IMG/VR virus record: IMGVR_UViG_3300044655_001686
Coordinates: 1 to 34,902 of that record
Length of the DNA stretch: 34,902 nt
Direction: 5' to 3' (one strand)
Source of the DNA: a virus
In this document: in pieces, positions 1 to 32,655 of the stretch
How positions within the stretch are numbered: the first letter of the stretch is position 1
Layout: every line of letters starts with the position of its first letter
Program-made: the position numbers and the translations under genes
The notes under the pieces: generated by a model
Told to the model about the DNA's origin: nothing
The model's input: the letters and a program-made list of their open reading frames with translations, nothing else
Databases searched by the model: none

Positions 1-200
1 GTTGAAGAAAATCCTTCTATTCCGTTTTTGATATTTACAAAATCTTGGTCAAGTGCCTGGGCCAATTTATTTAATTGCAACTCATGGTTTGTTACCACGT
101 GGAGAATACCTTCCAGCACTCGCACAGCTTCTTGACACTCAGCACTCATACTCAATGAGTCTAGCAAATTTATATAAGCAACAATTTGTTGTAGTTTCAT
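1..200 (-). CDS. hypothetical protein, N-terminal 66 residues only (gene runs off the left edge)
   Basis: An ATG at 200 opens a minus-strand frame that stays open to the window edge. It overlaps the polymerase stop codon in an ATGA junction, so it is probably translated by coupling as the next gene of the polymerase operon. The visible part begins MKLQQIVAYINLLDSLSMSA and is mostly predicted helix with regularly spaced Leu, Val and Ile, which suits a small helical or coiled-coil protein. I recognise no family. The reading frame, the overlap and the absence of any competing gene are the support. The C-terminus is not visible. Confidence 0.6.
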   Translation of the reverse strand, partial: MKLQQIVAYINLLDSLSMSAECQEAVRVLEGILHVVTNHELQLNKLAQALDQDFVNIKNGIEGFSS

Positions 201-2857
201 TCGAAGTCAAATAAGTTAGTAAATGTATTTTCTGTGTTGGTTGCTGATGCTAGGTCCCAGTCCAAGACACCCAACAAGTTATCAACTTTGCCATCCACCA
301 CAGTGGCTTCCATCTCTCCGTCATCAAATGGCAACTCAGTAAACCATGTGGGCAGTCGTTGTTCATCTGTGGGATAGCCAATGCTGGTCCAGCCCAGGGC
401 ATTTGGCTTGAGTTTACACACAATAGTTTTCATGCCATCAACAATAGCCATTGAGTAGTTATCACCGTTCATCTTTCTCATGTTGTTCCAGTTGATTGCG
501 GCTCGCACATGTCCCGGCATGTTTGCTTTGCCCAATCGAGTTTCCTCTGCCTGGTACTTGGTCAAGTTGTTCACACGCTTGGGCGAACCTTTTTCCCAGC
601 CTGGACGCTCCATGAATTCATACTTAAATTCTCTAATGCGTTCCACAATCTCATCTTTACCTGCACCAGCCAGCAGTTTATTTAGAATTTCTAGCAAGAA
701 GTCTTGAATAACTTTAGGGGTATCTGAGCGTTTTAGATCAAGACCTGTGGCCTTGGTTTTACCAATCTTGCCTTCTACGTCAAGTCTCTTGCCTTCGATG
801 TCAATGGCATTCACAGCATAACGCTTTTTGGTAATAAACAATCCACGGTCTGCTACGGTTTCACGGCCACATTTGATAAGTGAGCCCATATCTCTTGGGC
901 AGTGGAATGCTTGTTCCATGAAGCCAGGGAAACTTTCGTTGACCTGCTCGGCAAGGCTGTCATACAATTGAATACAAGCCTCTTTTGACCACGCCATACG
1001 TCCTTCCTCAACTTCTTTCTTGAGTACAGGCCAAGCACTGAAGTAGCAAGAGTCTGTGTCTCCATAGATGACTGCTTTGCCCACGTGGTCATATTCTCCG
1101 GTAATGAGTTCATTGAGGTGAGCATCCATGTGCCGGGCGATACTGCGACCAGTAAGAGTGGTTGATTGTCCAATACGCTTGTCAAAGAATCTACAGCCCG
1201 GGTTAAGAATAGCCCCGTAGAGACTGTTGAGGTTAATCTTCTTGACCAACTGACGCTTGTCCCAGAATGCAATTTCTTTGGCATCTTTGGCTTCCTTTTT
1301 CTTTGCTTGCAGTTCCTTGCGTTCTGAGTACCAACGCTCTAGCAGGCCAGGGATAATGCCCTTCTTTTCGAATGTGAGAATAGTACCGTTGGCAGTGAGG
1401 ATCCAGGGTTGGTTTGAGTCAAAGATAATGTTCCAGATCTCTGCGGCTGAGTGTACCGACTCTTCGCCGTTCTCCCAGTCAATAGTGATCTCAGTGCCAC
1501 GCTCTTGATTCATCACAGCAGTATATTCCAAGCTGGCAAAGATGCCTTCCCAAGCAGCCGCAAAACTCTGTCCCTTGGCCATGTTGCTCTTGATCAATCG
1601 ATCAGTCATGGTCTGGCGCAGTTGACCAACCACAGTCTCTGGACCCATGTTCATGGCACGAATTGCACTCGGATACAGACTGTTGATGTCCACTGATCCA
1701 ATCCACTCATGCACCCCTTTCTTGGGGTATGCCACATAAGCACCTGCGGCCTGTGTGTCTTCGTCTGTAAGGCGTTGCTTGCGGTTGGGCACAACCATGC
1801 CACGTTCATGTGCTTCGTTGATAATGGCCTGTTCAGTCACGGCCACAGCACCCATGGTGGTCTGTAATAGTACTGTGTTAGCGTGTGCCAGTTCATTGGC
1901 TAGATCCAAGAAACGCAATTTCTTGTCCAGTTTGCCAATCAGCAATGTGTCTTGGCGGTTGTACTCAATAAATGTCTTGAAGTGTTGATTGTACAAACTA
2001 TCCAGGGTACCTTCGAACTGTGTCTTGCGTTCGCCTAGTTCGTATTCGCAAATGGCATCTAGACTATATGAGTGACGTTCTTCATATGTGTACTTGCGAT
2101 ACAGTTGCATATAGTCCATATGCACACGACCAATCAAGTCATAAGTTTCGTTCTCTGCACCAAAGCGTTCGAACATGCGCTTCTTGGGCAGTTGCCCCCA
2201 TAAACAGAATTTGCGTGTGTCATCTTTGCTCAACACTCTAGTGCATCTGTTCACAGTATAAGGAATGTCATAGCCTTCTGAGTTCCAACCCGACACCACG
2301 TCTGCATCATCGATTAGATCCAAGAATGTCTTGATCATTTCCGACTCTTCAGCAAACAAGATGGTGTTTTCAAAGTCTTTAACCAAGTCTTGTGCAGTCT
2401 CCCAACTTAGATGTTTGGGCGGCACAGCCAATGTGACCAGTTGATCTAGCCAGTCGAGATAGACTGAAATTGCAGTAATTGGGTTAAAAGGATCCGATAC
2501 CGGGGAAAAACCGCGTTCTTGATCAAAAGCCACCTCAATGTCAAAAAACGCTGTGTGAAGCTCAGGCGCATCTTGATCCTTGTAGTTTTCTTCAAGGCAT
2601 CTAAAGATTGGATTGATGTCGCTTTCATAAAGCGGCTTATGGCTGTGAACACGCACTTCCTTGCGGAACTCTTTGTTATTCCTCGTAGAAAATCTTGATA
2701 CGGATGTGCCGTAGATACTTTTAAACTTTCCACGTGGATCATCGTAGTAAAAAATGTAATTTGCTGGATACTCTTTGTAGACCCGCTCACCATTGCGTCG
2801 TTCTACAGTATGAATACGATCGTGTTCACGATCAAATAGTGCGTCAATATAACTCAT
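197..2857 (-). CDS. 43: T4-type family B DNA polymerase with 3'-5' exonuclease (gp43-like)
   Basis: Replicative DNA polymerase of 886 residues, close to T4 gp43 (about 900). The exonuclease motifs are present: Exo I FFDIEVA (D106, E108), Exo II around GWNSEGYD (N192, D197) and Exo III YNRQDTLL. Polymerase motif A is DINSLYPS, motif B is KKINLNSLYG and motif C is YGDTDS near residue 598, so both activities should be intact. The start is supported by GGAGA eight bases upstream of the ATG. A sigma70-like promoter lies just upstream, suggesting expression by unmodified host RNA polymerase. The gene is uninterrupted, with no intein or split as seen in some T4 relatives. The usual T4 replication neighbours (clamp, clamp loader, helicase) are not in this window. 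Confidence 0.97.
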   Translation of the reverse strand: MSYIDALFDREHDRIHTVERRNGERVYKEYPANYIFYYDDPRGKFKSIYGTSVSRFSTRNNKEFRKEVRVHSHKPLYESDINPIFRCLEENYKDQDAPELHTAFFDIEVAFDQERGFSPVSDPFNPITAISVYLDWLDQLVTLAVPPKHLSWETAQDLVKDFENTILFAEESEMIKTFLDLIDDADVVSGWNSEGYDIPYTVNRCTRVLSKDDTRKFCLWGQLPKKRMFERFGAENETYDLIGRVHMDYMQLYRKYTYEERHSYSLDAICEYELGERKTQFEGTLDSLYNQHFKTFIEYNRQDTLLIGKLDKKLRFLDLANELAHANTVLLQTTMGAVAVTEQAIINEAHERGMVVPNRKQRLTDEDTQAAGAYVAYPKKGVHEWIGSVDINSLYPSAIRAMNMGPETVVGQLRQTMTDRLIKSNMAKGQSFAAAWEGIFASLEYTAVMNQERGTEITIDWENGEESVHSAAEIWNIIFDSNQPWILTANGTILTFEKKGIIPGLLERWYSERKELQAKKKEAKDAKEIAFWDKRQLVKKINLNSLYGAILNPGCRFFDKRIGQSTTLTGRSIARHMDAHLNELITGEYDHVGKAVIYGDTDSCYFSAWPVLKKEVEEGRMAWSKEACIQLYDSLAEQVNESFPGFMEQAFHCPRDMGSLIKCGRETVADRGLFITKKRYAVNAIDIEGKRLDVEGKIGKTKATGLDLKRSDTPKVIQDFLLEILNKLLAGAGKDEIVERIREFKYEFMERPGWEKGSPKRVNNLTKYQAEETRLGKANMPGHVRAAINWNNMRKMNGDNYSMAIVDGMKTIVCKLKPNALGWTSIGYPTDEQRLPTWFTELPFDDGEMEATVVDGKVDNLLGVLDWDLASATNTENTFTNLFDFE

Positions 2858-2915: not shown

Positions 2916-2944
2916 ATTGTACTTATTTGTTTTGATAAAGTCAA
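2916..2944 (-). promoter_or_regulatory. sigma70-like promoter of the DNA polymerase gene
   Basis: On the minus strand TTGACT (2939-2944), a 17-base spacer and TACAAT (2916-2921) lie about 60 bases upstream of the polymerase ATG. The -35 box overlaps the stop codon of the preceding gene. Each hexamer has one mismatch to consensus and the spacing is ideal, which suits an early or middle gene read by host polymerase. Confidence 0.7.
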
Positions 2945-3645
2945 GCATTTTTTAACAATGGCGCCAAAAAAGTATCTATGTACTGTTGATGTGCGATTGT
3001 TGCAGGATAGTGTGCATTCAAAAACGGCTGAGACGTTGAGATTGCCCAGGGCAAAAATCCACCAATGTCAGCAAACTTGCTTAGATCAATATGATCAGTA
3101 ATTTTGATCTCTTTGGTAAAAGTCCCGTGATGATAGTTGATTGGACAGTCAAATGGCAGCGCAGTCATCATGTGATATGTGATGCCTTTGGTCGCTAGAT
3201 ACAACTGAGCAGTGATAATCGAAGTATACCAATTATGCACAGCCTGATATGGACTGTAAAAATATTTAAAATATTTGTGCTTGTATCCACGAGGAACACT
3301 ACCGTTTAATATGTAACCTTGGTCCAGCTGAGCCTGACCATGTAGATCTACCAGTTGAGGCTGTGTGCCATCTGGCCAACTGGCATGTACATAGTCTTGC
3401 AACAGATGAGGAGTGGTCTGATCTGCCCAGAGATCGTACCGGTCGGCACTGGGCCACATTATTATCACGAGATCATCAATGCCAATGTCTGATGTTAGTA
3501 TTCTTTTGCTAACATAATCTGCGCCGGCACCACGTTCAGCATGATTGTGCAATTCTAAATTGAGATCTTGTGCCAGCAGATCTGCCCAGGTATCTTGATA
3601 ATTGTCCTTGGTAAAACTGCACCCAAATGTAAATAATTTTTTCAT
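2941..3645 (-). CDS. SGNH/GDSL-like hydrolase domain protein
   Basis: A 234-residue protein beginning MKKLFTFGCSFTKDNYQDTW. The GCSFT block matches the nucleophile region of SGNH/GDSL esterases. A second block, ERGAGADY, carries the expected Gly, and the C-terminal segment NAHYPATIAHQQY holds a candidate catalytic His. Such enzymes remove acetyl or acyl groups from carbohydrates and lipids; in phages they are often found beside glycan genes. The actual substrate is unknown, and phage copies of this domain can be degenerate. It is the last gene of the amidinotransferase operon and overlaps the preceding gene by ATGA. A second, diverged protein with the same GCSF opening lies at 17732-18538. 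Confidence 0.6.
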   Translation of the reverse strand: MKKLFTFGCSFTKDNYQDTWADLLAQDLNLELHNHAERGAGADYVSKRILTSDIGIDDLVIIMWPSADRYDLWADQTTPHLLQDYVHASWPDGTQPQLVDLHGQAQLDQGYILNGSVPRGYKHKYFKYFYSPYQAVHNWYTSIITAQLYLATKGITYHMMTALPFDCPINYHHGTFTKEIKITDHIDLSKFADIGGFLPWAISTSQPFLNAHYPATIAHQQYIDTFLAPLLKNA

Positions 3646-4757
3646 GACAATAGGGTTGCAATCCGTTCATCTTGCGTACGATTGTAGGCTCTGGGTTCTT
3701 CTAAAAACGCAGGATCTAATAGGATGTCTTGTACTTGAGCACAAGTGTCTATGTTAGCATCGATCAGATCTTGCAATGGAACCTGGGCCAACTGTTTGAC
3801 CATGTCAATGACCAAACGGAATCGATCAAAGTCTTGTTGCACAGAATCGTGTGATTGGTCAATGCTGTAGTCCAGAGGCAGATGGTAATCGTTCTTCAAG
3901 TATTCAATAGTACGTGGTTGACCAGAGTTCAGCAACACACAACCGGTAAGCAAAGTTTTCCAAGTTTTTTCTGTGATAAAAGGCCCCGGGCGATTATAAC
4001 GTTCTTGGCCGTTGTCAAGCCAGCCCATGCTGTCAGTCTCATTGTTAAAATTACACAACGATGATTCAAACGCTGGATTGAATATATCCATCATGTTATT
4101 TTTAACTGTATTACGCCCCCAGTTGTACTCGTCTACAGTTAGTTCTTGTTCCAACACACTCCAGTCAAGGTCACTGAATACTGGGCTGTCCTGAAACGAT
4201 TGTATAAGATCTTTTTGAATTGTGCTAGGACTATTATCAAGCAAATGCCAACTCATGATACTTTGAGCTCGGGCATAGTTACACAACGCGGCGGTAACTG
4301 TTGCACGAGCCTGTCTCATAAAGTAACTCAGACTACTAAACTTGTATTTGATCTTTTTGTCTTTGACTCTCAAAACTTGAGATACATCAAAGCAGTCATG
4401 AAACATTTCCATTCTGATGTAATAATGACGATATTTGATATGTGTCACGTTGCTGGGCAATGGATAGTCATATGGATCTAAATCAGCCAACCACACAACG
4501 GGCACGTCAGGATATCGAAGACCCAATGCCCTTACATCGTCGTATCTTGGGCTTTCGGCGCAACTAGTAAACAGTATGGATTTATGTTGTGGGGTCAATT
4601 GTATAAGATCAACAGCCGGCCCATCTGAATTCAATAGCATGCACACACGATCAAGGTCGATGTTTTTCATAAATCCATAACGGCGATACCAAAAATCAAA
4701 TTGAGCATGCCCAACAGACACATCGTTTGGGAATAACGTATCCAACCATTTGGTCAT
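3642..4757 (-). CDS. glycosyltransferase-like phage protein, TEKTW family (type A)
   Basis: A 371-residue protein of a phage family I know only as hypothetical or glycosyltransferase-like. The most telling segment is FITEKTWKTLLTGCVLLNSG at about residues 262-281. It resembles the EK...G nucleotide-sugar-binding segment of GT10/GT-B enzymes. It is followed by the family block DYSIDQSHDS...DFDRF. The product at 8199-9302 has the same architecture (YVTEKTWKPLLAGC, then DLSHDSETRDFDR), so these two are paralogues. The gene overlaps the upstream amidinotransferase by ATGA and the downstream SGNH gene likewise, so the three should be translationally coupled. Glycosyl transfer is inferred from the C-terminal motif and context only; donor and acceptor are unknown. 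Confidence 0.6.
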   Translation of the reverse strand: MTKWLDTLFPNDVSVGHAQFDFWYRRYGFMKNIDLDRVCMLLNSDGPAVDLIQLTPQHKSILFTSCAESPRYDDVRALGLRYPDVPVVWLADLDPYDYPLPSNVTHIKYRHYYIRMEMFHDCFDVSQVLRVKDKKIKYKFSSLSYFMRQARATVTAALCNYARAQSIMSWHLLDNSPSTIQKDLIQSFQDSPVFSDLDWSVLEQELTVDEYNWGRNTVKNNMMDIFNPAFESSLCNFNNETDSMGWLDNGQERYNRPGPFITEKTWKTLLTGCVLLNSGQPRTIEYLKNDYHLPLDYSIDQSHDSVQQDFDRFRLVIDMVKQLAQVPLQDLIDANIDTCAQVQDILLDPAFLEEPRAYNRTQDERIATLLS

Positions 4758-5839
4758 TTAAAAAAACTCTGTAAAGTGCCTTGTCGATCCAAGTCATTGG
4801 TGATGCAGTGAATACCTGCGTCCCAGAAATAGCGATGTCTGAAAGGACTAACGTGTACTTCAATACCATGTCTGGCACAAGCCTGCTCAACTTGATCATT
4901 GTGACTGCTCACCACAATGTTCTTGTGATCAATCACAAGGATGTTGACATCAAACACAGTTTCGCAGACGTTGCCAACCCAGTCTTCAAAGTAGTATTCT
5001 ACTGTGTTGATAAGATTAGAATCTTGATCAAATCCGGGAATGTGCCAACGACCGCGATTGATTCTCATGCTGGCTTGAAACTCACGCATGTGTTCATAGT
5101 TGCTGGGTGGCAAGTATACCACTTCCCAGTCAGGAAATGTATCAGCGTATGTGGGTATATCTTGTAGGCTAATAATCAATCCAGGAGTCACTGGACAATA
5201 TGTAGCATCGCCGTGTCCACCTGCATTCACAATCTTGTTGTGTGTGGTGGGAAAGTGTGTGTTCACTGTTGCGAGCAATGCCGCTTGATCTTCGCTGTAT
5301 TCTTGTGTGGCAAAATACAAGTTTTTACCAATGCGACTCACAAAAGAACCGTTTACAAAATCCAAATCTGTTTGTTGCACTGTGTTGCCTTGATCACGAA
5401 CATGTTGGAAAATGTCTGTGTAACAACTTAGTTTGGCGTTGAGTTGTGCTTGATCCTGCCGATCAAATTCTTCACGATTCAAAATATTTTGTCTTGCAAA
5501 TGCACGATCCGTGTGTATACGATTGGGCACAGTGGGAACCCACAGTCGATCTTGTATCATGACAAAGTAATCTCTGGGGCAAACCGGTGGTTGCATCCAG
5601 CGACCTTGTATATTCAACGAACTGAGATCCACAGGCAGTTGAGGCCGCAACACACGGATTCCGAACTTGCCTTGTAATAAACTAATAAGGGCTTGATAGT
5701 CTTGTTCGGTTTCTTCTGCCAACTGTTCAAATCGTTGGCGTGTGTTTGCGTCTTGGATCCATCTATAAAATTCCGGCGGGTAACTCGTACCTATGACGCA
5801 TACCTTTAACGGATCCCAGTGTTGAAAAACAGAATACAT
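4754..5839 (-). CDS. GATM-type amidinotransferase, copy 1
   Basis: A 361-residue protein of the glycine/inosamine amidinotransferase family, which moves an amidino group from arginine to an amine. The C-terminal nucleophile block GIHCITNDL..QGTLQSFF (C345) closely matches the HCxTxDxRRxGTLQSY block of animal AGAT. NAGGHGDATY (H209, D211) corresponds to the MHIDATF block and CPRD (D90) to the substrate-binding PRD. AGAT has a triad Asp in FDAADF, but here the aligned stretch reads FVNGSF (Ser165), so the acid may be lost or moved to D160. It is about 70 % identical, without gaps, to the product of 6798-7898. The ATG lies three bases after the previous stop. The acceptor is unknown; neighbouring glycosyltransferase-like genes suggest an amino sugar or similar metabolite. 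Confidence 0.88.
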   Translation of the reverse strand: MYSVFQHWDPLKVCVIGTSYPPEFYRWIQDANTRQRFEQLAEETEQDYQALISLLQGKFGIRVLRPQLPVDLSSLNIQGRWMQPPVCPRDYFVMIQDRLWVPTVPNRIHTDRAFARQNILNREEFDRQDQAQLNAKLSCYTDIFQHVRDQGNTVQQTDLDFVNGSFVSRIGKNLYFATQEYSEDQAALLATVNTHFPTTHNKIVNAGGHGDATYCPVTPGLIISLQDIPTYADTFPDWEVVYLPPSNYEHMREFQASMRINRGRWHIPGFDQDSNLINTVEYYFEDWVGNVCETVFDVNILVIDHKNIVVSSHNDQVEQACARHGIEVHVSPFRHRYFWDAGIHCITNDLDRQGTLQSFFK

Positions 5840-5842
5840 TTG

Positions 5843-6808
5843 TTAAGTAATTTCCAATGCAGCAATTTCTTTAAGAGCTTGTTTAAATTTGTCGGGCCAG
5901 GCCAGTCGCAATTTTAACAGCAGTTGTTGATTGCGTTGTGCTCGTTGTTCAAAATCTTCAAGTACTGCATCTGTATAATCAATAGGTGTAGACAACTGAT
6001 CCAGGATCATTGTTTGTCTTTTAAAATTCAACGGCTCTTGATCGTAACTGTGATCAATATAGTCATCAAACACATCAAACCCCCAATCACGCAAACATGA
6101 CACTGCACCAACAGAACTTAACAACAACCAGGGTCTCGGTAACTGTATACTACGCCAGGTCTTTTCAGTAAAAACATTGGCGTCAGGATCATCAAAAAAT
6201 GTTTCAAGTATCACAGTTCTTTCACTATCAAGTATGGCGTCTTCTATCGAACATGTAAAATTTTTGTATGGAATTTTTCCCTGTAATTGTTGATGTTCAT
6301 CTTTAAAAATTTCATTGCCAATCAACAAAGATTCAAAATTTTCACTAGCGGACAACGGGCCCAATCGATTCTCACACCAGTAACTTATGTGCCCATGGTC
6401 CAATAGAGATCGACGAACAAACTGGTACATCCAACTTTGTCTAAATTGACATCCTCGATTTATAAAACAGTTGAATTTTTTTGTGGGTTTCGAATTGACA
6501 TAGTCAAAATTGTAATGATACACACCAAAGTACTCAGGTGCCAAGGTTATGGTTTTCCAATCCAGAGAATTTACAACTCCGTCAGTAATGTAGTAATCTC
6601 TTTGATCCTCCTTGACTGGATTATGACAAAAATTTATTTCAAGAGTGCAGTTGTTTTTTGTGTATGTTGCATGGTCTTTACGATTGGTAGAATTAATTTT
6701 CCAGTTATTGTGATCCAGCACTTGGGAAACAGTTTTCAACACTACCTTACTCCAGTCTCGACTGGGGTGGTGCAGCATCAACTGATCCTTGTACAGGTCA
6801 TTGACCAT
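5843..6808 (-). CDS. glycosyltransferase-like phage protein, TEKTW family (type B)
   Basis: A 321-residue protein with VFTEKTWRSIQLPRPWLLLS at about residue 210, followed by SCLRDWGFDVFDDYIDHSYD. The second block is nearly repeated in the plus-strand protein at 16683-17744 (HYRDWGFETFGDVIDETYDN), which marks a second subfamily beside type A. I chose the ATG at 6808 because GAGG lies seven bases upstream; the longer frame from 6856 lies within the preceding gene. The gene sits between the two amidinotransferase copies and overlaps the upstream one by 11 bases. A transferase role is inferred from the EK-type C-terminal motif and the context; no catalytic residue can be assigned with confidence. 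Confidence 0.55.
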   Translation of the reverse strand: MVNDLYKDQLMLHHPSRDWSKVVLKTVSQVLDHNNWKINSTNRKDHATYTKNNCTLEINFCHNPVKEDQRDYYITDGVVNSLDWKTITLAPEYFGVYHYNFDYVNSKPTKKFNCFINRGCQFRQSWMYQFVRRSLLDHGHISYWCENRLGPLSASENFESLLIGNEIFKDEHQQLQGKIPYKNFTCSIEDAILDSERTVILETFFDDPDANVFTEKTWRSIQLPRPWLLLSSVGAVSCLRDWGFDVFDDYIDHSYDQEPLNFKRQTMILDQLSTPIDYTDAVLEDFEQRAQRNQQLLLKLRLAWPDKFKQALKEIAALEIT

Positions 6809-7898
6809 GCGGATCCTCAAGGAAAGTTTGCATTGTTCCTTCACGATGTAAATCATTGGTCACACAATGAATACCGCAGTCCCAAAAATATTTGTGACGG
6901 AATGGCACAACATGAACATCAATGCCATGTCTAGCGCAAGCCGATTCAACTTGATCATTGTGGGCTGACACAACAATGTTTTTATTATCCACAATCAAAA
7001 TGTTGACGTCGAACACTGTTTCACTCACTTGTCCTACCCAAGTATCAAAATAATATTCGACCATGTTCACAAGGTGTTGATCATACTCAAAGCCTGGCAT
7101 GTGCCATCGCCCTTTGGTACTTTTCATGGACCCTTCAAACTCTCTCATGTGTGCATAATTACTAGGAGGCAAGTATATCACTTCCCAGTCAGGAAATGTA
7201 TCAGCATAAGTAGGAATGTCACGCAAACTTATGATCAAGCCAGGTGCAACTGGACAATATGTTGCATCACCGTGACCTCCTGCATTGACAATTCTGTTAC
7301 GAGTGTCTGGAAACAACTGATCAACTTTGTTTTTAAGTACAGATTGATCTTCATCATAACTTTGTGTGGCAAAAAATAAATCCCTGCCAATTCGACTTAC
7401 AAAGCATCCACTGACAACATCTAGTTCAGTTGGCCTCACTTGATTGCCCTGTTGCTGAACTAGATCAAAAATATTCTGATAGCACATGAGTTTGGCAGTG
7501 TGTTGCTGTTGATCTCTACGATCAAATTCTTGTCGGTCCAATGTTGTCTGACTATTAAACACATGATTTGCATGACTACGGTTAGGCACAGTAGGAACCC
7601 ATAGCTGGTCATGGATCATCAGATAATAGTCTCTAGGAGTTACTGGTGGTTGTATCCATCGATCATTTATTTTTAACACTGATAGATCTTCGGGCAACTG
7701 TGGTCTCACTACTTGTACGCCGAATTTTTTTTGCAATAGATTGATAAGACCTTGATAGTCTTGTTCGGTTTCTTCGGCCATGCGTTGGAAACGTTGACGC
7801 ATGTTGGTATTCTGGATCCATGAATAAAATTCTGGATCGTAAGTTCTTCCTACCACACAGACCTTTAGTGGATCCCAGTGTTGAAATACAGAATACAT
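6798..7898 (-). CDS. GATM-type amidinotransferase, copy 2
   Basis: A 366-residue paralogue of the protein at 4754-5839, colinear from the shared N-terminus MYSVFQHWDPLKVCV to the C-terminus, with 251 of 360 positions identical by my hand count. It keeps PRD (D90), GGHGDATY (H209, D211) and the nucleophile block GIHCVTNDL (C345). Where AGAT has its triad Asp this copy has VVSGCF (Cys165). The two copies are also alike in DNA: a block of about 27 bases near 7169 matches one near 5123 exactly. Divergence is concentrated around residues 110-200, which could mean different acceptors. It follows the DsbA-like gene directly and should be driven by the promoter at 8181-8209. A tail of six residues after position 360 is unique to this copy. 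Confidence 0.88.
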   Translation of the reverse strand: MYSVFQHWDPLKVCVVGRTYDPEFYSWIQNTNMRQRFQRMAEETEQDYQGLINLLQKKFGVQVVRPQLPEDLSVLKINDRWIQPPVTPRDYYLMIHDQLWVPTVPNRSHANHVFNSQTTLDRQEFDRRDQQQHTAKLMCYQNIFDLVQQQGNQVRPTELDVVSGCFVSRIGRDLFFATQSYDEDQSVLKNKVDQLFPDTRNRIVNAGGHGDATYCPVAPGLIISLRDIPTYADTFPDWEVIYLPPSNYAHMREFEGSMKSTKGRWHMPGFEYDQHLVNMVEYYFDTWVGQVSETVFDVNILIVDNKNIVVSAHNDQVESACARHGIDVHVVPFRHKYFWDCGIHCVTNDLHREGTMQTFLEDPHGQ

Positions 7899-8159
7899 TT
7901 AGAGGGTTTTACCTACAGTTTCTAAAATAGTCTCAAGTGTCTCGTGGTCTTGTTTTTCCTTGCCGAACTCAGCCTTGTGTGCCAATTTGATAGCCTTTTT
8001 CAAGATAGCCGGTTTCACTTCCAGTTCCTCAGCAATGGCTTTGATGGTGTCATTGAGTCCACCTTGTAAGGTATCAATTTCGTGCATGACCTGCATGCCC
8101 TCGTTGATGATTTGGGTGAGTTTGATCTTTTGATCGCCGTTGAATGTTTTTGCTGACAT
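7899..8159 (-). CDS. DsbA-like small double-stranded-DNA-binding protein (T4 type)
   Basis: An 86-residue, charged, all-helical protein. Its size and its pattern (a helical N-terminus, then ELEVKPAILKKAIKLAHKAE, then an acidic tail) resemble T4 DsbA, a dsDNA-binding protein that assists late transcription. The T4 protein has a comparable ELGVDGKMFNRLLALYHK segment followed by an acidic end. A strong Shine-Dalgarno (AAAGGAGAT) precedes the ATG and a sigma70-like promoter lies upstream, so it should be well expressed. It heads the amidinotransferase operon. The assignment rests on pattern similarity in a short protein and could be wrong. Confidence 0.6.
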   Translation of the reverse strand: MSAKTFNGDQKIKLTQIINEGMQVMHEIDTLQGGLNDTIKAIAEELEVKPAILKKAIKLAHKAEFGKEKQDHETLETILETVGKTL

Positions 8160-8180: not shown

Positions 8181-8209
8181 AGTTTACACGGTTACTTGTT
8201 ACAAGTCAA
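8181..8209 (-). promoter_or_regulatory. sigma70-like promoter of the DsbA/amidinotransferase operon
   Basis: On the minus strand TTGACT (8204-8209), a 17-base spacer and TAAACT (8181-8186) lie directly upstream of the AAAGGAG ribosome-binding site of the DsbA-like gene. The -35 matches 5 of 6 and the -10 matches 4 of 6. It is the only promoter-like sequence I see for the six-gene run that ends at 2941. Confidence 0.5.
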
Positions 8210-9302
8210 CAAGTTTGGATCTAATTTGTTCTAATGATTTTTTGTTACGATTGGAACATTGTGTTCCAAAGCGGCCACTGGCTATCCAGTCTAGATTATG
8301 TTGTGTGCTGTGTTTGGTAAGCTCAGTCAATTCCTGTGTACTGCGATCAAGCACCTGATCAATCACATTGAAAATTTTCTCAATCCGGTCAAAGTCCCGT
8401 GTTTCCGAATCGTGACTCAAATCTAATCCATAATCAAAACGCAGGCCCAGTTGTTCCAGATATTGATATATGTGTGCCTGCCCCACACTCACAAACGCAC
8501 AACCTGCCAGCAATGGCTTCCATGTTTTTTCTGTCACATACGGACCAGGCCAATAAAAATCCACGCCATCCTTGATGGTGTAACTGTAGTGAAATCCTTC
8601 GTTGGTAAAATTTACCGCAGCATCTGTATAAGGCGCAACACGCCAGTCGCAATTGGCCATGGGATAATTTTTACCGGCATTAAACCCATCTAGTTCCAAG
8701 TGCGGTTGTTCTGCTTCCATAAATGCCAGGACGCTGTCCAAGGGTTTTCTGCCTGTGGGTTCAAAGAAGTAACGATATTGATGGCGGCCATGATAACTGA
8801 TAACACAGTCATCTGCATTGGCATGTTTGAGCAAGTAACCAGTGACATAGTGTTTGAACTGGTCCGTTCGGAAACATAGACTACTGATCTTGTGTGTTGG
8901 TTGATTGGGTTCTGCAGCTATGCCGTACAACAACGCAATTTGATCCAATTGTTTATGCCATGTGATCCAAGATACAAATTCACAGTTGGTTGGCCACCAA
9001 GTTCCGGGCGCAACATCGTTGTCGGTTATGACTAGAATCCGGCTACTGGTGTTTGTTTGTGCTACATGTTTTACAAACTCCACATCCATTTGCTCTAGAT
9101 GAAATGACAACACATACAAACTGTGAGCTGTGGGCAGTTTGCACCACTCGGTAGGCCATTGCAAGTTTAATGCAAACAAAGTATCTTTGGGCCAGGCAAG
9201 GTCAAGGAATTCAGGATATATGTAGCGTACCAAGGCCTGTTGTCCAAGGTCGTGACTCGACGTTATGATGTTTTGATCAAAATAATCGGGGAGTCGAGCC
9301 AT
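8199..9302 (-). CDS. glycosyltransferase-like phage protein, TEKTW family (type A)
   Basis: A 367-residue protein beginning MARLPDYFDQNIITSSHD. Its C-terminal part carries PYVTEKTWKPLLAGCAFVSV and then DLSHDSETRDFDR, the same order as in the product of 3642-4757, so the two are paralogues. The N-terminal half is diverged and contains alternating hydrophobic strands (LFALNLQW, RILVITDND), in keeping with a Rossmann-like first domain of a GT-B enzyme. I chose the ATG at 9302; the frame extends to a GTG at 9368, but that extension (GGCCLRCRIRYL) looks non-coding. The Shine-Dalgarno is weak. Its end lies inside the promoter region of the DsbA-like gene. Confidence 0.58.
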   Translation of the reverse strand: MARLPDYFDQNIITSSHDLGQQALVRYIYPEFLDLAWPKDTLFALNLQWPTEWCKLPTAHSLYVLSFHLEQMDVEFVKHVAQTNTSSRILVITDNDVAPGTWWPTNCEFVSWITWHKQLDQIALLYGIAAEPNQPTHKISSLCFRTDQFKHYVTGYLLKHANADDCVISYHGRHQYRYFFEPTGRKPLDSVLAFMEAEQPHLELDGFNAGKNYPMANCDWRVAPYTDAAVNFTNEGFHYSYTIKDGVDFYWPGPYVTEKTWKPLLAGCAFVSVGQAHIYQYLEQLGLRFDYGLDLSHDSETRDFDRIEKIFNVIDQVLDRSTQELTELTKHSTQHNLDWIASGRFGTQCSNRNKKSLEQIRSKLVDL

Positions 9303-9360
9303 GCAAGTAATTATGCTCACTTTCGATATCAGGTAGCGAATCCGACATCTGAGGCAGCAG

Positions 9361-13163: not shown

Positions 13164-13883
13164 TTATCGTTCTTCTATATAATCTTGACTCTGGTCCTGT
13201 CGCTGTCTGCGCTTTTGAAACAGTTTCACTGCCATGTCAGCATGGTCAATGCGGGGGAAACGTGTGGGTAAACTGCGCTCGCCATGACGAACTTCGTAAC
13301 CTGATTCATCATCGCCCCAGCACTCTAGACACGTGCCATCTTCTAGGGTGTATGTTCTCACTGGAGATTCACTCATGGCCGACATTGGGGAGGCCGGTGC
13401 TGCTACCGCAGCCGCTATGTGATCTTCAACGCCGTGTGCTACTTCTGTGTCAGCAGGATCACCAATGGGTTGTACATCCTGGTCCCAGGTAGCATTTTCT
13501 TCAACTTCGTCTTCAGTTTGTGGATCATCGTCGATGTTTAGTTCTGCTTTGGCTTTGCGTACCAAACGACTGTCAAGGTGATTTTCTTTTTCTAACTTTT
13601 CCAAGTAGTCAGCAAATTGCCCCTTCACACGACTGATCATGTCTTCTTCAACTTCTTGCATGGCTTCAGCAAGAGCATTTTCACCCACCATGTAACCATC
13701 AAGTGGATGCGCCTGATAGGGTTTCTTTGTGAGTGTAGGAGAGATGTTGCGTGGTTTCAGCAAAGCAGGCAACTGAGGCACACCCTGTTGCTGTTTGTTT
13801 AGTCCGTGGCGCACCGAGACTGGGGTAGTTTTACCCTCAATCAAGGCCAGGCGTTCAATTATGCCGTAAATGGGATCTGTCAT
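13164..13883 (-). CDS. hypothetical acidic protein, possible capsid-packaged cargo
   Basis: A 239-residue protein I do not recognise. It begins MTDPIYGIIERLALIEGKTT; the L-I-E before Gly at residues 14-16 fits the (L/I)-x-E cleavage rule of T4 prohead protease. The middle part (about 90-135) is helical and acidic, followed by an Ala-rich spacer. The C-terminal part (about 175-225) is compact, with TYTLEDGTCLECWGDDESGYEVRHGER recoverable as a small beta-rich unit around two Cys (write-up split: TYTLEDGTCLECW, then DDESGYEVRHGER). It overlaps the Dps-like gene by ATGA and lies two bases from the LysM protein gene, so the three are likely co-transcribed. Function unknown. Confidence 0.6.
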   Translation of the reverse strand: MTDPIYGIIERLALIEGKTTPVSVRHGLNKQQQGVPQLPALLKPRNISPTLTKKPYQAHPLDGYMVGENALAEAMQEVEEDMISRVKGQFADYLEKLEKENHLDSRLVRKAKAELNIDDDPQTEDEVEENATWDQDVQPIGDPADTEVAHGVEDHIAAAVAAPASPMSAMSESPVRTYTLEDGTCLECWGDDESGYEVRHGERSLPTRFPRIDHADMAVKLFQKRRQRQDQSQDYIEER

Positions 13884-14323
13884 GCTCTAGCGTCTTTCAG
13901 AAAACTTCTCAACATCCAGCCGTGCTTGCCGTGTGCATCAATACGGGCGGCCAAAAAGTCCATGATGCCTTGCTGACTTTCTTGTTCAGCAATTTGGAAT
14001 GTTTTGTTCAGTAAGTCTATCATTTGACCGTTGTTGGCATACAACTCTTCGATCATGAGTCGAGCACGCGGAATCTTGGTTTGGCCAGAAATCGTAGACA
14101 GCTCGCTAAAACGTTCAAAGCTGCCAGGAGTGTAATCATCTAAAATGCGGATAAATTCAGCAGTTTGGTCTATGCTGTTTTCGTAGACTTCTTCGTAGAT
14201 CTTGCCAAAGAACTTGTGCAGTTGAGCAAAGTCAGGACCCTCCACGTTCCAGTGAAATAGCTGGGCTTTGATTACGAATGCGTATTCAGTTGCCAGGAGA
14301 GTTTTTAAAGCGTCCGCGAGCAT
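13880..14323 (-). CDS. Dps/ferritin-like protein
   Basis: A 147-residue four-helix protein of the Dps type. The N-terminal helix ends in AQLFHWNVEGPDF and is followed by LHKFFGKIYEEVYENSIDQTAEFIR, matching the Dps ferroxidase pattern HWN...H...Y...D..AE. The acidic pair usually found after the second His (FEE in many Dps) reads FGK here, so iron oxidation may be weakened. Family members store iron, protect DNA from peroxide, and occur in some T4-like phages. I chose the ATG at 14323 because AAGGA precedes it and the Dps fold starts there; the 20-residue extension upstream is antisense-like. The start overlaps the preceding gene by 38 bases. It may protect packaged or host DNA. Confidence 0.8.
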   Translation of the reverse strand: MLADALKTLLATEYAFVIKAQLFHWNVEGPDFAQLHKFFGKIYEEVYENSIDQTAEFIRILDDYTPGSFERFSELSTISGQTKIPRARLMIEELYANNGQMIDLLNKTFQIAEQESQQGIMDFLAARIDAHGKHGWMLRSFLKDARA

Positions 14324-14489
14324 GTTTGTTCCTTTTGTATTCCTTGGGCGTGTTAGGCGTAGGATCGTTTGTATATTTACCACTCAACAACGATCCGCCA
14401 TTTCTTGACACGGTGCCCATGGCCATGCTTACTGGCGCTATACCACCGGCTGTGGTGCTGGTTTCAGCAATGAATTCTCGAGCTCTCAT
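14286..14489 (-). CDS. small protein with T4-like capsid-targeting N-terminus (MRAREFIAE)
   Basis: A 67-residue protein beginning MRAREFIAE, very like the T4 capsid-targeting peptide MKTYQEFIAE, with an I-A-E cleavage site before Thr. The rest is Gly/Ser-rich and then basic (EYKRNKHARGRFKNSPGN), with no hydrophobic core, so the mature form would be a short, positively charged peptide such as T4 internal proteins. It overlaps the upstream gene by ATGA and the Dps-like gene by 38 bases. The unusually long overlap is a mild reason for doubt, but the N-terminus recurs in another gene of this window (20566-21144), which supports it. Confidence 0.65.
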   Translation of the reverse strand: MRAREFIAETSTTAGGIAPVSMAMGTVSRNGGSLLSGKYTNDPTPNTPKEYKRNKHARGRFKNSPGN

Positions 14490-14829: not shown

Positions 14830-15816
14830 ATGCTGAAACTTCAACACATACAGTCGGTGCATGTGGAACTTACCACACGATGCAATGCCCGATGTCCCAT
14901 GTGCATGCGCAACTATCGCGGCAGTGATTTTAATTCTGGCTATCCAGATACTGAACTGTTGTTGGAACACATACAACACATACTGACTCCAGCAGTATTA
15001 GAACAGGTTGAGCATGTGAATTTCAATGGTAATCTTGGGGATTTCGGCCTGGCGCGAGATGCAGCAGAAATTGTAGAATATCTGGTGGCCAATCGCACAG
15101 AAGTTTCTATCAATACCAATGGCAGCATGCGATCCAAATCCTGGTGGTCGCGCCTGGCTTTACCAAATGTCACCATTGGATTTGCACTAGACGGCCTGGC
15201 GGATACTCACAATTTGTATAGACAAGACACTGACTGGAACCGTGTGATTGAAAATGCCACTGCATTTATAGCAGCGGGTGGTCAAGCCATATGGCGGTTT
15301 GTGCCATTTGATCATAATCGACATCAAGAAGCAGAATGCCGCAGACTTGCTGAAAAACTTGGGTTTGTGGCGTTTGAAAACATCTATGATGGCAGAGATT
15401 CAGGCCCAGTATACACACGCACTGGTGCGTTCAGTCATTGGCTTGGACCTGCAGGTGATCCGCCGCCCATCAAAGACATGTTGCAAAGCCATATCACTTG
15501 GTATGACAGCAAGACTGTAAAGATATCCAAAGATACTGCCACTCTCAACTTACGGTGTCGTCACAAGATGGCCAAAGAAATATATCTAGCCGCAGACGGC
15601 ACTGTGTACCCTTGTTGTTACTTGGGATTCTACCCGCACAGCATGAACCACCCCGGCAACCAAGAACTTGCTCATCTGGTTGCTGAAAACAACGCACTTG
15701 AATACCCACTTGAACATTGTTTGAACTGGTTTGACCGTGTAGAACAATCATGGAACCAGACCAGTGTACGTGATGGTAGAACATTTCAATGCGTGAACAC
15801 ATGCAATCAAACATAA
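14830..15816 (+). CDS. radical SAM enzyme with SPASM-type C-terminus
   Basis: A 328-residue radical SAM enzyme. TTRCNARCPMC gives C18, C22 and C25, the CxxxCxxC site of the [4Fe-4S] cluster that cleaves S-adenosylmethionine. FNGNLGDFG and INTNGS are typical later strands of the barrel. The C-terminus holds further Cys at 243, 262, 263, 297, 321 and 325 with LAADGTVYPCCYLG, the pattern of a SPASM/twitch auxiliary-cluster domain. Relatives modify peptides (anSMEs, mycofactocin maturation) or act in sugar chemistry. The substrate is unknown; immediate co-transcription with two glycosyltransferase-like genes suggests a carbohydrate-linked step, and there is no obvious small precursor peptide next to it. 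It is the first gene of a plus-strand island inside minus-strand DNA. Confidence 0.88.
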   Translation: MLKLQHIQSVHVELTTRCNARCPMCMRNYRGSDFNSGYPDTELLLEHIQHILTPAVLEQVEHVNFNGNLGDFGLARDAAEIVEYLVANRTEVSINTNGSMRSKSWWSRLALPNVTIGFALDGLADTHNLYRQDTDWNRVIENATAFIAAGGQAIWRFVPFDHNRHQEAECRRLAEKLGFVAFENIYDGRDSGPVYTRTGAFSHWLGPAGDPPPIKDMLQSHITWYDSKTVKISKDTATLNLRCRHKMAKEIYLAADGTVYPCCYLGFYPHSMNHPGNQELAHLVAENNALEYPLEHCLNWFDRVEQSWNQTSVRDGRTFQCVNTCNQT

Positions 15817-17750: not shown

Positions 17751-18538
17751 CAGATTTCATAGAAGTGTTCTGCTATTAACCGCTGCCCCTGGGGACTGGA
17801 ATGATAGCCGGGATCTTCGCCAGTAAACGGATTGTTCCCACATATGGCCTGCGGTGATCGTGCAGAGTCCAAGTTGATATAGTGATCAGGAATCAGGGCA
17901 GGAAATGCATCTCTCCATTGGGCTTGATTGTCGGGATCAAACGGCCACAACAGATTTGGGCAAACAATAAATTTTATACCATCCAAGTACATCATGATCA
18001 TGCCTTCTCGCATGATCCATTCATCGCATTGCTTTTTCCAGGCATTGTCGTAGATTGAATCTATCCAGGCTCGTATGCCATTTTGAGCTTGCTTGGTAAT
18101 ACGTGCCATTCTATAAGGGTGTTCGTAATTTTCTGCCAGGGTAAAGATAGTTTCGCAAATCATGTTGGATGGTTCCTGACCGTAGTTTACATTACGGATG
18201 CCATCTTTTCTGTTGTAGCCAATGCCTAAATTGCGATTTTGCAGATGCCGCTCCAAGGGAGGGTTCTCTCCTGAGCTGGGTGATTGACTCCAATCATACG
18301 GTGCTGAGTCAGCAGGAATTTCCATGCGGTCCCAAAAGGTTGGAGTAATGATTGCAAAGTCTGGTCGCTGTCTACGTATTTCGTCAATTTGAATACGAAT
18401 GCCGCCGTTTGAACAGCCTTGACGTGCTAGGTTAGTCAAGCGCCATCCTAGTTTTTCTGCCAATACTTCTGACCAGGCAGTGCCCGGAAGTGTTTGTGAC
18501 ACTGCTGAAAATGAGCATCCTGCTACCATTAAGTGCAT
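17732..18538 (-). CDS. SGNH/GDSL-like hydrolase domain protein
   Basis: A 268-residue protein with the SGNH nucleophile block AGCSFSAVSQT at the N-terminus, LARQGCSNGG as the second block, and DPGYHSSPQGQRLIAEHFYE near the C-terminus, which supplies the Asp-x-x-His pair of the family. All the expected pieces are in order, more clearly than in the protein at 2941-3645. Enzymes of this type remove O-acyl groups from sugars. I chose the ATG at 18538, with AAGGA seven bases upstream, over the internal ATG at 18529. It follows the PIG-L-like deacetylase gene with a ten-base overlap, so a paired role in tailoring the same glycan is a fair inference. Confidence 0.68.
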   Translation of the reverse strand: MHLMVAGCSFSAVSQTLPGTAWSEVLAEKLGWRLTNLARQGCSNGGIRIQIDEIRRQRPDFAIITPTFWDRMEIPADSAPYDWSQSPSSGENPPLERHLQNRNLGIGYNRKDGIRNVNYGQEPSNMICETIFTLAENYEHPYRMARITKQAQNGIRAWIDSIYDNAWKKQCDEWIMREGMIMMYLDGIKFIVCPNLLWPFDPDNQAQWRDAFPALIPDHYINLDSARSPQAICGNNPFTGEDPGYHSSPQGQRLIAEHFYEIWQNHFK

Positions 18539-19044
18539 TGTGGTTCCTTGTAACTGTTGGTATGTTTGGTGCCGTGAAAGCCGGCTATGATCTCGCCGTG
18601 TTCGGGCAATTCATCTAGTGTGTATGTGCCTGCGGGAATCGAGTATTCTGTGCCTTCGCCGGGTCGAGCAAATGTAACCAGTCTAGGATGATGTTTGGCA
18701 CAGTCATGCACAAACACATGATGCAAGTGACCGTAGTCTCCTTGTGCATCGTGCGTGAGCACTAGATCATATGATTCAATTATGTTGCCAATTTCTCTAC
18801 GTGCTTGTTCCTCATTGAAACTTATTTGTTTGTTTTCAATGTCTCGGTAGTCATCTGTATAACCCAGGAAGATACAAGTGATACCACGCTTTGCCCAAAA
18901 CTCTTTGAGCTCGCGACCACGTGGATCCCACTCACAATAAGTCAAATAACAGACGTGCCACTTCATGTCAGGATGGTTGTGTATGTAACTGTAGCCAAAG
19001 ATCACACAGTCATCTGGATGTGCGACCAAGCACAATGCCTTCAT
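18529..19044 (-). CDS. PIG-L/LmbE-family N-acetyl-sugar deacetylase
   Basis: A 171-residue protein of the LmbE/PIG-L family, zinc enzymes that remove acetyl groups from N-acetylglucosamine-type sugars. The opening MKALCLVAHPDDCVIFG holds the AHPDD metal site (H9, D11, D12), LTHDAQGDYGHLHHVFVHD the second metal and catalytic block (here GHLHH in place of the common HPDH), and the strand order fits. It is shorter than many relatives (about 230), lacking part of the C-terminal region. The ATG at 19044 puts the AHPDD motif in its usual place and overlaps the previous stop by ATGA. Removal of an acetyl group would expose an amine, which is the kind of acceptor an amidinotransferase needs; that link is my inference. 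Confidence 0.8.
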   Translation of the reverse strand: MKALCLVAHPDDCVIFGYSYIHNHPDMKWHVCYLTYCEWDPRGRELKEFWAKRGITCIFLGYTDDYRDIENKQISFNEEQARREIGNIIESYDLVLTHDAQGDYGHLHHVFVHDCAKHHPRLVTFARPGEGTEYSIPAGTYTLDELPEHGEIIAGFHGTKHTNSYKEPQCT

Positions 19045-19883
19045 GGCAATTCCCATGCGCAGAATATTCCGCGGTCCAGTAAAAAGTGTTGATAGGCTTG
19101 TTTTTGTTGGTCTGTGAGTTCTAGCCAGGCCTTGCGGTGAATACTCACCGTGAGTGGATTGTTAGTTTTCATCTGGTTGAGTTTGTCTTCAAACTGCGAT
19201 ACCTCAGTATGGCAAACATTTACAACCCCAAAACTACACTCGGGATTGTAGAAAGTTTCAAAGCCGCCGAATCTATACTGCAAGTACCCTGAGTATAACA
19301 TAAACTCTGTGATACGCCCTTTGCCCTGAAACCAAAGTGGAAACTTTTGTTTAACCTTAAACGTGGTTTCGGCAATCATTAGTCTTACTGCATCATTTTG
19401 GAACAAGAATGGCACACCACCTGGTCCCAGTTGCTTGGTCATGTCAATGTCATAGGTTTGATTCACCATGAGTCGGGTGGTTTCAAACACAGGATAGATA
19501 TCCAGTGTTCCAACTCGAGCACAACCTTGTTCGTCAATGATGTCTTTTAGTTCCAGTTCCTTGACAAAAATGGTTTTGGCATCCAGTACCATGGTCCAGG
19601 TGTTGTGACTCATGCTGGCGGCCAGGAGTTTCAGTGCCTGCTGGCTGACCCAACCGTCTTCAACAAACAAGGTGCTGAATGCCGAACGTGGCACAACCAA
19701 CACATGATTGGCCGCAGCACCCCACCACCCAGCATCAATTTGGTGTATGGTATCATCGTCGTCGTTGACAATTACATAGATGTTGCGGATGCCAATATGT
19801 CGGCAATAGCGTTCTATGCTCTGGGCTTGTAATTTGAGAATTGGTAGTTCGTCTCGAAATACCACTGTTGCAATGTCTATCAT
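19041..19883 (-). CDS. glycosyltransferase-like protein (DUF6492-like)
   Basis: A 280-residue protein with IYVIVNDDDDTIHQI near residue 35, WVSQQALKLLAASMSHNTW near 78 and VLDAKTIFVKEL near 100. The last block sits where the product of 15824-16702 has HDCDCLLIRD, so the canonical DxD is here D-A-K, which could alter metal use. The QQ-x2-K helix supports common ancestry of the two. It should be a cytoplasmic transferase acting before the deacetylase and SGNH-like genes that follow in the operon. No Shine-Dalgarno stands out before the ATG. Activity cannot be taken for granted because of the changed DxD. Confidence 0.55.
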   Translation of the reverse strand: MIDIATVVFRDELPILKLQAQSIERYCRHIGIRNIYVIVNDDDDTIHQIDAGWWGAAANHVLVVPRSAFSTLFVEDGWVSQQALKLLAASMSHNTWTMVLDAKTIFVKELELKDIIDEQGCARVGTLDIYPVFETTRLMVNQTYDIDMTKQLGPGGVPFLFQNDAVRLMIAETTFKVKQKFPLWFQGKGRITEFMLYSGYLQYRFGGFETFYNPECSFGVVNVCHTEVSQFEDKLNQMKTNNPLTVSIHRKAWLELTDQQKQAYQHFLLDRGIFCAWELP

Positions 19884-28894: not shown

Positions 28895-29545
28895 TTATTT
28901 AGCACGGGCTATAATGGGCAGGGTCTTTCTGACAACACCGGGCACAGCCATGTTGATCAAGAAATCAGCATTGGGTTCGTTGTGATCCACAAAATAGTTG
29001 CTCATCAACCACATTCTTTTGCCTTTTACTAAGTTAGCAAAGCCCGGGCCTTGTCTAAACATGTCAGGCCTGGCGGCAAAATAACGACGCAAGGTCGACA
29101 TGTCGTCGTTTGAAAGCCAGCGTTCCCGGAAATATGTTCTAAATGCATGACGTGGATTTTTCAATGTCACTGCGTCTGGATTCATGTTTACCAAGGCTTG
29201 ATTTACGTACAGAATCTCGCCTGTGGGTATGGTCACAATATCCTCAAAATCTTCAGGATCGTTGGTGTATAACCATAGCCCGTTGCCACATACCACTTTC
29301 TTGTAAGGATGCGCTCGGGCCAACAAATAATCACAGGCCTGGTGCAATGTTTTTTCAACCTCAGGAGTGATATGTCTTGCACCACCACGGCGAGCAATCC
29401 ATTCGTTTCTGTAGCGAATACTCTGATTGATCCGCTCATGTTTGAGTTCACGCAAGAAACTGGCCTCGGGCAAGATAAACAAGATCACATACTGCCACTT
29501 GTGAAAGTACAGGCTACTGCGTGGTACTAGAACAGGCTTACGCAT
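28895..29545 (-). CDS. hypothetical protein (216 residues) next to clpA
   Basis: A protein from the ATG at 29545 (MRKPVLVPRSSLYFHKWQYV), overlapping the clpA stop by eight bases. It is rich in aromatic residues and Arg (RTYFRERWLSNDDMSTLRRYF, split here as RTYFRERW and DDMSTLRRYF), with GLWLYTNDPEDFEDI in the middle. I recognise no family. A longer start at 29569 lies inside clpA and adds only eight residues. Tight spacing suggests it could be an adaptor or partner of the ClpA-type unfoldase, but that is a guess from position only. It looks complete and stable in composition. Confidence 0.6.
   Translation of the reverse strand: MRKPVLVPRSSLYFHKWQYVILFILPEASFLRELKHERINQSIRYRNEWIARRGGARHITPEVEKTLHQACDYLLARAHPYKKVVCGNGLWLYTNDPEDFEDIVTIPTGEILYVNQALVNMNPDAVTLKNPRHAFRTYFRERWLSNDDMSTLRRYFAARPDMFRQGPGFANLVKGKRMWLMSNYFVDHNEPNADFLINMAVPGVVRKTLPIIARAK
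28896..28903 (-). promoter_or_regulatory. late-promoter-like GCTAAATA before the 55-residue gene
   Basis: GCTAAATA overlaps the stop codon (TAA) of the upstream gene and its last base is seven bases from an ATG without a Shine-Dalgarno. It has the same sequence as the element at 27897-27904. Confidence 0.35.
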
Positions 29546-31875: not shown

Positions 31876-32655
31876 TTATGCATGATTTTGGATGGCTGTG
31901 ATAATTTCGGGCGCGATTGTCTTGGGAATTTCTGTTTGTATCTGCACCATGAGATCACCTTTTTGCCCCGACTGATCCCCCAGGCCTTGTGATCTCAGTC
32001 GCAATGTGGTTCCGGGTTGAGTGTGTGGCGCAACCCTTACCACTAGTCGATTGCCTTCCACAGTTTGCACTTCGGTCTCGCCGCCCAGAATCAAGGTCCA
32101 TATGGATACCTTGTGTGTGGTTGCAAGATTGAGGCCTTGTCGTTGAAAGTTAGCATGTGGTTGTATTCTAAATTGGATCACTAGATCCTGTCCTCCGGGT
32201 GCAATACCAGGGTACTGTACATTGTCACCATCATTGATGCCCAGGGGTATTTCAATTTCAACTGTGCTGGTTCCGGCCTGTGTGCCCAGGGCCACAGGCC
32301 GCTTGCCGCCACGAGCCACGTCCAACAACGTGATCCAAAGGCTCATGCGCACATGATTACGACGCGGCTGTTGTCCAAATGGTGATTGTCCCCCGAACAT
32401 TTGGCCAAAAATATCATGGATGTTTACGTGTACCCCACCGCCATTGAATCCCGGGAATTGTGGTGCAGGATTGTCGTAGGCCTGTCGTTTGGCTTCGTCA
32501 CCTAGTGTGTCATAGGCCGCTTGTATCTCTTGAAATTTCTTTGTATCTCCACCTTTGTCAGGATGATGCTGGCTGGCCAGCCGGCGGAAAGCACGTTTGA
32601 TTTCATCCTGAGTGGCGTTTCGCGCAACGCCTAGTGTTGCATAGTGATCGGTCAT
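31876..32655 (-). CDS. dnaJ: DnaJ/CbpA-like co-chaperone (no zinc finger)
   Basis: A 259-residue class B Hsp40. The J domain (1-66) has HHPDKGGDTKKF with the essential HPD (31-33), which stimulates the ATPase of DnaK. A Gly-rich stretch follows (PQFPGFNGGGVHVNI, then QSPFGQQPRR), then two C-terminal peptide-binding subdomains (VEIEIPLGINDGDNVQYPGI and the ILGGETEV block). There are no CxxCxGxG repeats, as in CbpA and unlike DnaJ proper. No dnaK is in view, so it must use the host one. It could support assembly or divert host chaperones. The ATG at 32655 lies right beside a terminator hairpin and a perfect promoter. Confidence 0.92.
   Translation of the reverse strand: MTDHYATLGVARNATQDEIKRAFRRLASQHHPDKGGDTKKFQEIQAAYDTLGDEAKRQAYDNPAPQFPGFNGGGVHVNIHDIFGQMFGGQSPFGQQPRRNHVRMSLWITLLDVARGGKRPVALGTQAGTSTVEIEIPLGINDGDNVQYPGIAPGGQDLVIQFRIQPHANFQRQGLNLATTHKVSIWTLILGGETEVQTVEGNRLVVRVAPHTQPGTTLRLRSQGLGDQSGQKGDLMVQIQTEIPKTIAPEIITAIQNHA

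Follow-up and report, generated by a model that had tools for sequence, protein, structure and literature searches.

A few antibiotics, streptomycin among them, contain guanidino sugars. The described amidinotransferases serve different acceptors: StrB1 of Streptomyces griseus (1bwd) is an inosamine-phosphate amidinotransferase, HsvA of Erwinia amylovora (5wpi) acts on polyamines, and the arginine:glycine amidinotransferase AGAT (also GATM; 1jdw) acts on glycine. In AGAT, Asp254 of the FDAAD motif is the catalytic acid and Arg322 binds the carboxylate of the donor. Phage proteins have been annotated as amidinotransferases before, namely a "possible glycine amidinotransferase" in a cluster of radical-SAM and sugar-transferase genes of the Campylobacter phages CP220/CPt10 (PMC2853527), the "glycine and inosamine amidinotransferases" of the isolate Synechococcus phage S-SCSM2R, and an entry of BFVD. 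Here, we describe two proteins of this kind, P0001 and P0002, encoded in one gene block of a large uncultivated phage, the virus record IMGVR_UViG_3300044655_001686 (hereafter the window, i.e., the whole stretch of 34.9 kb that was analyzed, classed as linear and probably a fragment). By homology and structural model, both belong to the amidinotransferase family and adopt a predicted five-bladed pentein propeller fold, and they probably carry out amidinotransferase chemistry. Our overall explanation, on which our judgement is evenly balanced, is that the pair would be active and would guanidinylate the amine of a sugar or glycan that the phage makes or modifies.

Family, fold and active site of the pair

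P0001 (361 amino acids; 4754..5839, minus strand) and P0002 (366 amino acids; 6798..7898, minus strand) are colinear paralogues with 251 of 361 residues (70%) identical in a gap-free alignment. Both open reading frames were confirmed, as was the estimate of about 70% in an earlier sequence-only reading of the window; the PRD, HGD, and HC..D motifs that it had pointed out are present in the pair and near-invariant across 84 relatives. The check that it had proposed, homology search and structure prediction, leads to the amidinotransferases on both counts. Searched alone against the Protein Data Bank (PDB), P0001 matched HsvA (E 1.2e-10), StrB1 (3e-7), AGAT (3.5e-5), and also SxtG, with no supported match to any other enzyme in that search. 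A 44-member profile matched the same amidinotransferases in the PDB, and a 57-member phage profile, three members of which are canonical, reached 1e-26 to 1e-37 against amidinotransferases. Neither protein matched Pfam PF02274 or NCBIfam, and both matched PHROG 25854 (E 1.4e-9), for which the listed function is unknown. The model of P0001, built from a 57-row alignment, has a predicted local distance difference test score (pLDDT) of 88.7 and a predicted template modeling score of 0.89, and that of P0002, built from 44 rows, has a pLDDT of 75. All seven best PDB matches of the P0001 model are amidinotransferases (HsvA, SxtG, AGAT, and StrB1; E 2e-18 to 9e-17), and its best viral match is an uncultured-phage protein that bears the name inosamine-phosphate amidinotransferase (TM 0.81/0.86).

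The active site of the pair is partly that of AGAT. HMMER alignments equate D90, H209, D211, and C345 of P0001 with AGAT D170, H303, D305, and C407, all of them invariant, so that the catalytic Cys and His and the Asp pair that binds the guanidinium group are found in place. At the other two positions the pair departs from AGAT: Asp254 corresponds to N163 in P0001 and S163 in P0002, and Arg322 corresponds to I/V at 228. Because these two equivalents are replaced, the use of arginine, and even activity, is not assured, although Arg322 does not strictly define the family, since HsvA also lacks an Arg there in the alignment. P0001 carries an Asp, D340, five residues before the catalytic Cys (Cys-5). 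We surveyed 160 distinct phage sequences, of which six are canonical. The canonical six keep D/E at position 254 and have G at Cys-5. In every atypical sequence except one degenerate homologue (see below), the equivalents of D90, H209, D211, and C345 are invariant and Cys-5 is D. An acid at 254 is missing from practically all atypical sequences of classes A (the class of the window pair), B, and D, whereas class C keeps D/E. From this pattern in the alignments, we infer that D340 may do the work of the missing Asp254. Seen consistently over ~150 viral sequences, this exchange of the acid for an Asp at Cys-5 makes it possible to test in what ways amidinotransferases of the pentein fold can be rewired.

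Gene context and the candidate acceptor

In the mechanism that we propose, both proteins would be active amidinotransferases. With arginine as the most likely donor, they would pass an amidino group via a thioimidate on C345 to the amine of a sugar or glycan that the phage makes or modifies. Neighboring proteins with a TEKTW motif, putative glycosyltransferases, would place or modify that sugar, and the product would presumably sit on virion or host surface glycans. A sugar or glycan amine is the best reading of the acceptor, though an indirect one for the class of the window, because of three observations, on the TEKTW genes, on a sister class of enzymes, and on phage S-SCSM2R, which we take in turn.

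Of the 48 class-A loci left after removal of near-duplicates, 23 have a TEKTW gene directly adjoining the amidinotransferase gene; among other genes of the same loci, used as controls, the figure is 30 of 300 (odds ratio 8.3). This count is biased by the fact that the TEKTW profiles were partly built from neighbors of amidinotransferases. The data support an association beyond chance. TEKTW genes are common anyway, as eight large genomes gave 55 matches in ~1.57 Mb, and most loci recovered with TEKTW proteins as bait had no amidinotransferase.

The large genomes behind the loci encode several amidinotransferases. The class-B enzyme (~345 amino acids) lies within a conserved gene cluster of large phages (seen in L199-L278, L187, L188, and L190-L193) that comprises an NAD epimerase/dehydratase, a DegT/StrS aminotransferase, a 600-aa protein, two TEKTW proteins, the amidinotransferase, a TobZ/NodU-type carbamoyltransferase, a 362-aa protein, and several radical SAM/SPASM genes. 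Among 52 full-flank loci found with class B as bait, the carbamoyltransferase and TEKTW occurred in 52, DegT and the epimerase in 50, and a PIG-L gene in 5. Each of the six class-A contigs that reach 120 kb or more encodes another atypical amidinotransferase, which belongs to class B in five of them and to class D in the sixth. Class D is a second amidinotransferase between the epimerase and DegT in two class-B clusters. Two loci (L208 and L224) had appeared to place class A inside a DegT cluster; this was rejected, since their additional enzyme falls into a class of its own and shares ~25-28% identity with P0001 and P0002. Class C resembles StrB1 (E 4e-58) and lies beside a UDP-sugar dehydrogenase, a 172-aa protein, and UvdE, a UV endonuclease of DNA repair; its operon, in L101, L093, L089, L196, L197, and L198, also holds further unknown proteins. 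In S-SCSM2R, the atypical amidinotransferase adjoins KdsA/KdsB, and the operon of the canonical one also encodes several glycosyltransferases and a "3-amino-5-hydroxybenzoic acid synthase" (a DegT-type aminotransferase). By analogy with these settings, we infer that a sugar amine would be the acceptor of class A. The sequence-only reading had proposed a route that guanidinylates a sugar or a nucleotide; of this, the amino-sugar context is supported, by way of the sister class B in the same phages and not in the window, and the nucleotide or DNA target is not.

Several observations weigh against a sugar acceptor or against activity. Besides the replacement of both the Asp254 and the Arg322 equivalents, searches of the TEKTW proteins against family profiles, Pfam among them, and PDB sequences found no known family and no glycosyltransferase match. 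None of 81 class-A loci has a cluster-type DegT, epimerase, or carbamoyltransferase in its flanks, and many class-A genes stand alone amid core phage genes with no adjoining sugar gene. Class B mostly occurs without class A (a class-A-like match was present in 7 of 22 large class-B contigs), so the class-B pathway does not require a class-A step. We put forward only tentatively the wider hypothesis that large T4-like phages run a guanidino-sugar pathway (keto-sugar formation, amination, amidino transfer, carbamoylation, and TEKTW-mediated transfer) with a virus-specific clade of amidinotransferases whose acid has moved from FDAAD to Cys-5, and that the class-A pair of the window decorates additional amines on a glycan of the same type. 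If true, phage surfaces, or host surfaces modified by the phage, would gain a carbamoylated and strongly basic sugar from a viral pathway, and this could matter for adsorption, superinfection exclusion, and glycan-directed defense. The question is open to laboratory test because the isolate S-SCSM2R carries both enzyme types.

The block around the pair reads, along the minus strand, TEKTW, DsbA-like, P0002, TEKTW, P0001, TEKTW, SGNH-like, DNA polymerase. Two core genes bound the slot of the amidinotransferases: a DsbA-like late transcription regulator (7899..8159) and a family B, gp43-like DNA polymerase (197..2857), which is closest to that of Sinorhizobium phage Phosso (50% identical) and next to those of other jumbo T4-related phages. 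The three genes for TEKTW-motif proteins, all putative glycosyltransferases, lie upstream of DsbA (8199..9305; open reading frame listed to 9368), between the two amidinotransferases (5843..6808; open to 6856, with the likely start at 6808), and downstream of P0001 with a 4-bp overlap (3642..4757). The last of them is followed by a putative SGNH-like hydrolase (2941..3645) with a GCSFT start motif. The operon that had been proposed from the sequence is indeed tight, as the P0002 start abuts the DsbA stop and the middle TEKTW gene probably begins within the 3' end of P0002; it holds three TEKTW genes rather than two, and a Pfam search gave no support for the SGNH-like assignment. The PIG-L family de-N-acetylase noted elsewhere in the window proved real (18529..19056, minus strand; PF02585 E 2.2e-11, 44.8 bits against a cut-off of 28.2). 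It lies 10.6 kb from the amidinotransferases and is a possible source of a free amine. As a constant partner of the amidinotransferases it was rejected, since only five of the 21 related contigs encode PIG-L, three of these five being of class A.

The window also encodes a homologue of CsgG, known from curli secretion (33976-34803, plus strand; Pfam E 6e-53), a Dps/ferritin-like protein (13880-14383, minus strand; Pfam E 4e-20; PHROG label DNA binding protein), and a chaperone pair on the minus strand made up of a ClpA/ClpB-like double AAA protein (29538-31805) and a DnaJ-like protein (31876-32655). A radical SAM/SPASM protein (14830-15816, plus strand) lies on the strand opposite to its neighbors and is found at the same place in three relatives (L010-L012).

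Distribution and history of the two copies

Close relatives of the pair are common in uncultivated T4-like phages, with at least 115 in viral contigs, and almost absent from cellular genomes. A pattern scan of 84,980 prokaryote genomes yielded two distant relatives only, both on contigs with phage-like genes, and a cellular origin was rejected on these grounds. Class A occupies several slots among the T4-like core genes, where it either stands by itself or is accompanied by TEKTW and radical SAM genes.

In the close relatives of the window, the usual arrangement is DsbA-amidinotransferase-polymerase with a single amidinotransferase. A quick tree places P0001 in an 11-row clade of such resident copies (support 97) and P0002 outside a 20-row single-copy clade (support 89). 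The P0002 lineage occurs only in the window and in two relatives (L001 and L002), and all three carry both copies. The tandem duplication of the sequence-only reading is therefore not borne out, at least as a recent event: P0001 groups with the single copies and is the one resident in the DsbA-polymerase slot, whereas P0002 represents an older diverged lineage. That the differences between the two concentrate in residues 110-200 was seen correctly (43 of 91 positions differ there against 67 of 270 elsewhere, p 1e-4). Two acceptors do not follow from it, because these residues change fast throughout the family: single-copy pairs at equal overall distance have a mean identity of 53.6% in residues 110-200, and P0001 and P0002 have 52.7%.

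Alternative explanations and comparison with known systems

Foremost among the alternatives, if unlikely, is a stand-alone amidinotransferase that acts on a small host amine, such as a polyamine or an amino acid, to give a guanidino metabolite that is sometimes N-methylated afterwards. HsvA is the best single-sequence match, class A is often the sole inserted gene amid core genes, and a PRMT-like methyltransferase (PRMT1/PRMT7, E 1e-8) lies beside a class-A amidinotransferase or within a few genes of it in five of the six loci in which this methyltransferase was found (L033:4159-5007, L036:7641-8483, L039:1848-2699, L060:5550-6398, and L117:5001-5837), the sixth being cut off. In ocean viruses, GAMT is reported to be the most virus-enriched step (PMC11360552). 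Together, the PRMT-like neighbors and this enrichment leave room for some phages to N-methylate the newly formed guanidino group. Against this alternative, the methyltransferase is rare, at five loci, and both the adjacent TEKTW genes and the class-B cluster speak for sugars; no recurrent polyamine-gene neighbor was recognized, most neighbors being without annotation. In the PRMT-like proteins, alignment by eye shows the first Glu of the double-E loop kept and the second apparently replaced.

Improbable, in our judgement, is a hydrolase of the pentein fold, of the deiminase or dihydrolase type, that acts on a guanidino compound, for instance to remove arginine or agmatine. DDAH, arginine deiminase (ADI), and agmatine deiminase share the fold, and the loss of the Asp254 and Arg322 equivalents implies a remodeled donor site. 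Against this, the best sequence and fold matches are all amidinotransferases. The three hydrolases matched the P0001 model far more weakly, with deiminases from 6e-10 only, a gap in fold E-value of at least seven orders of magnitude, and class B sits within a biosynthetic amino-sugar cluster.

Slightly less probable again is that at least one of the two copies is a paralogue without catalytic activity, kept for a binding or regulatory role. The acid equivalent to Asp254 is lost in nearly all members, and a clearly degenerate homologue does exist in the marine virus AG-345-D19 (L084:9001-10296), which lacks the catalytic Cys, PRD, and HxD. In all atypical sequences but this one, the four residues equivalent to D90, H209, D211, and C345 and the Asp at Cys-5 are kept, and selection on the pair is strongly purifying: P0001 and P0002 are 79-81% identical at codon positions 1 and 2 and 45% identical at position 3, which indicates that both copies are constrained. 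Modification of DNA or nucleotides by guanidinylation of an aminated base is very improbable, for although the slot adjoins the DNA polymerase gene, the same gene occupies several other slots in related phages, no base-hypermodification gene was recognized beside it, and its relatives lie in sugar clusters.

A guanidinylated sugar or glycan, the reading that we prefer, is closest in logic to the StrB1 pathway, whose pairing of a StrS-type aminotransferase with an amidinotransferase resembles class B. StrB1 has the pentein fold and the PRD/HxD/HC motifs in common with the phage enzymes, whereas classes A and B lack the Asp254 acid and the Arg322 equivalent and have Asp at Cys-5, and class A has no adjoining aminotransferase. 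HsvA is the best match of P0001 in both sequence (E 1.2e-10) and fold (E 2e-18), at 17% identity in the fold alignment; unlike the pair, it retains the Asp254 acid and has G at Cys-5. AGAT shares the fold and the D170, H303, D305, and C407 equivalents with the pair, which differs in having N/S at Asp254 and I/V at Arg322, in a window without a guanidinoacetate-type context.

Among phages, the CP220/CPt10 amidinotransferase matches the canonical StrB1-like class and not that of the window, and a search with P0002 did not match it. S-SCSM2R combines one atypical and one canonical enzyme in a single isolate, both among glycan genes; compared with P0002, its sequence is ~26% identical and belongs to a separate marine clade. 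The open-access literature yielded nothing on the function of phage amidinotransferases or on the class-B cluster. As far as can be told, two elements are new: an atypical amidinotransferase clade with an exchanged acid, and a conserved viral amino-sugar cluster.

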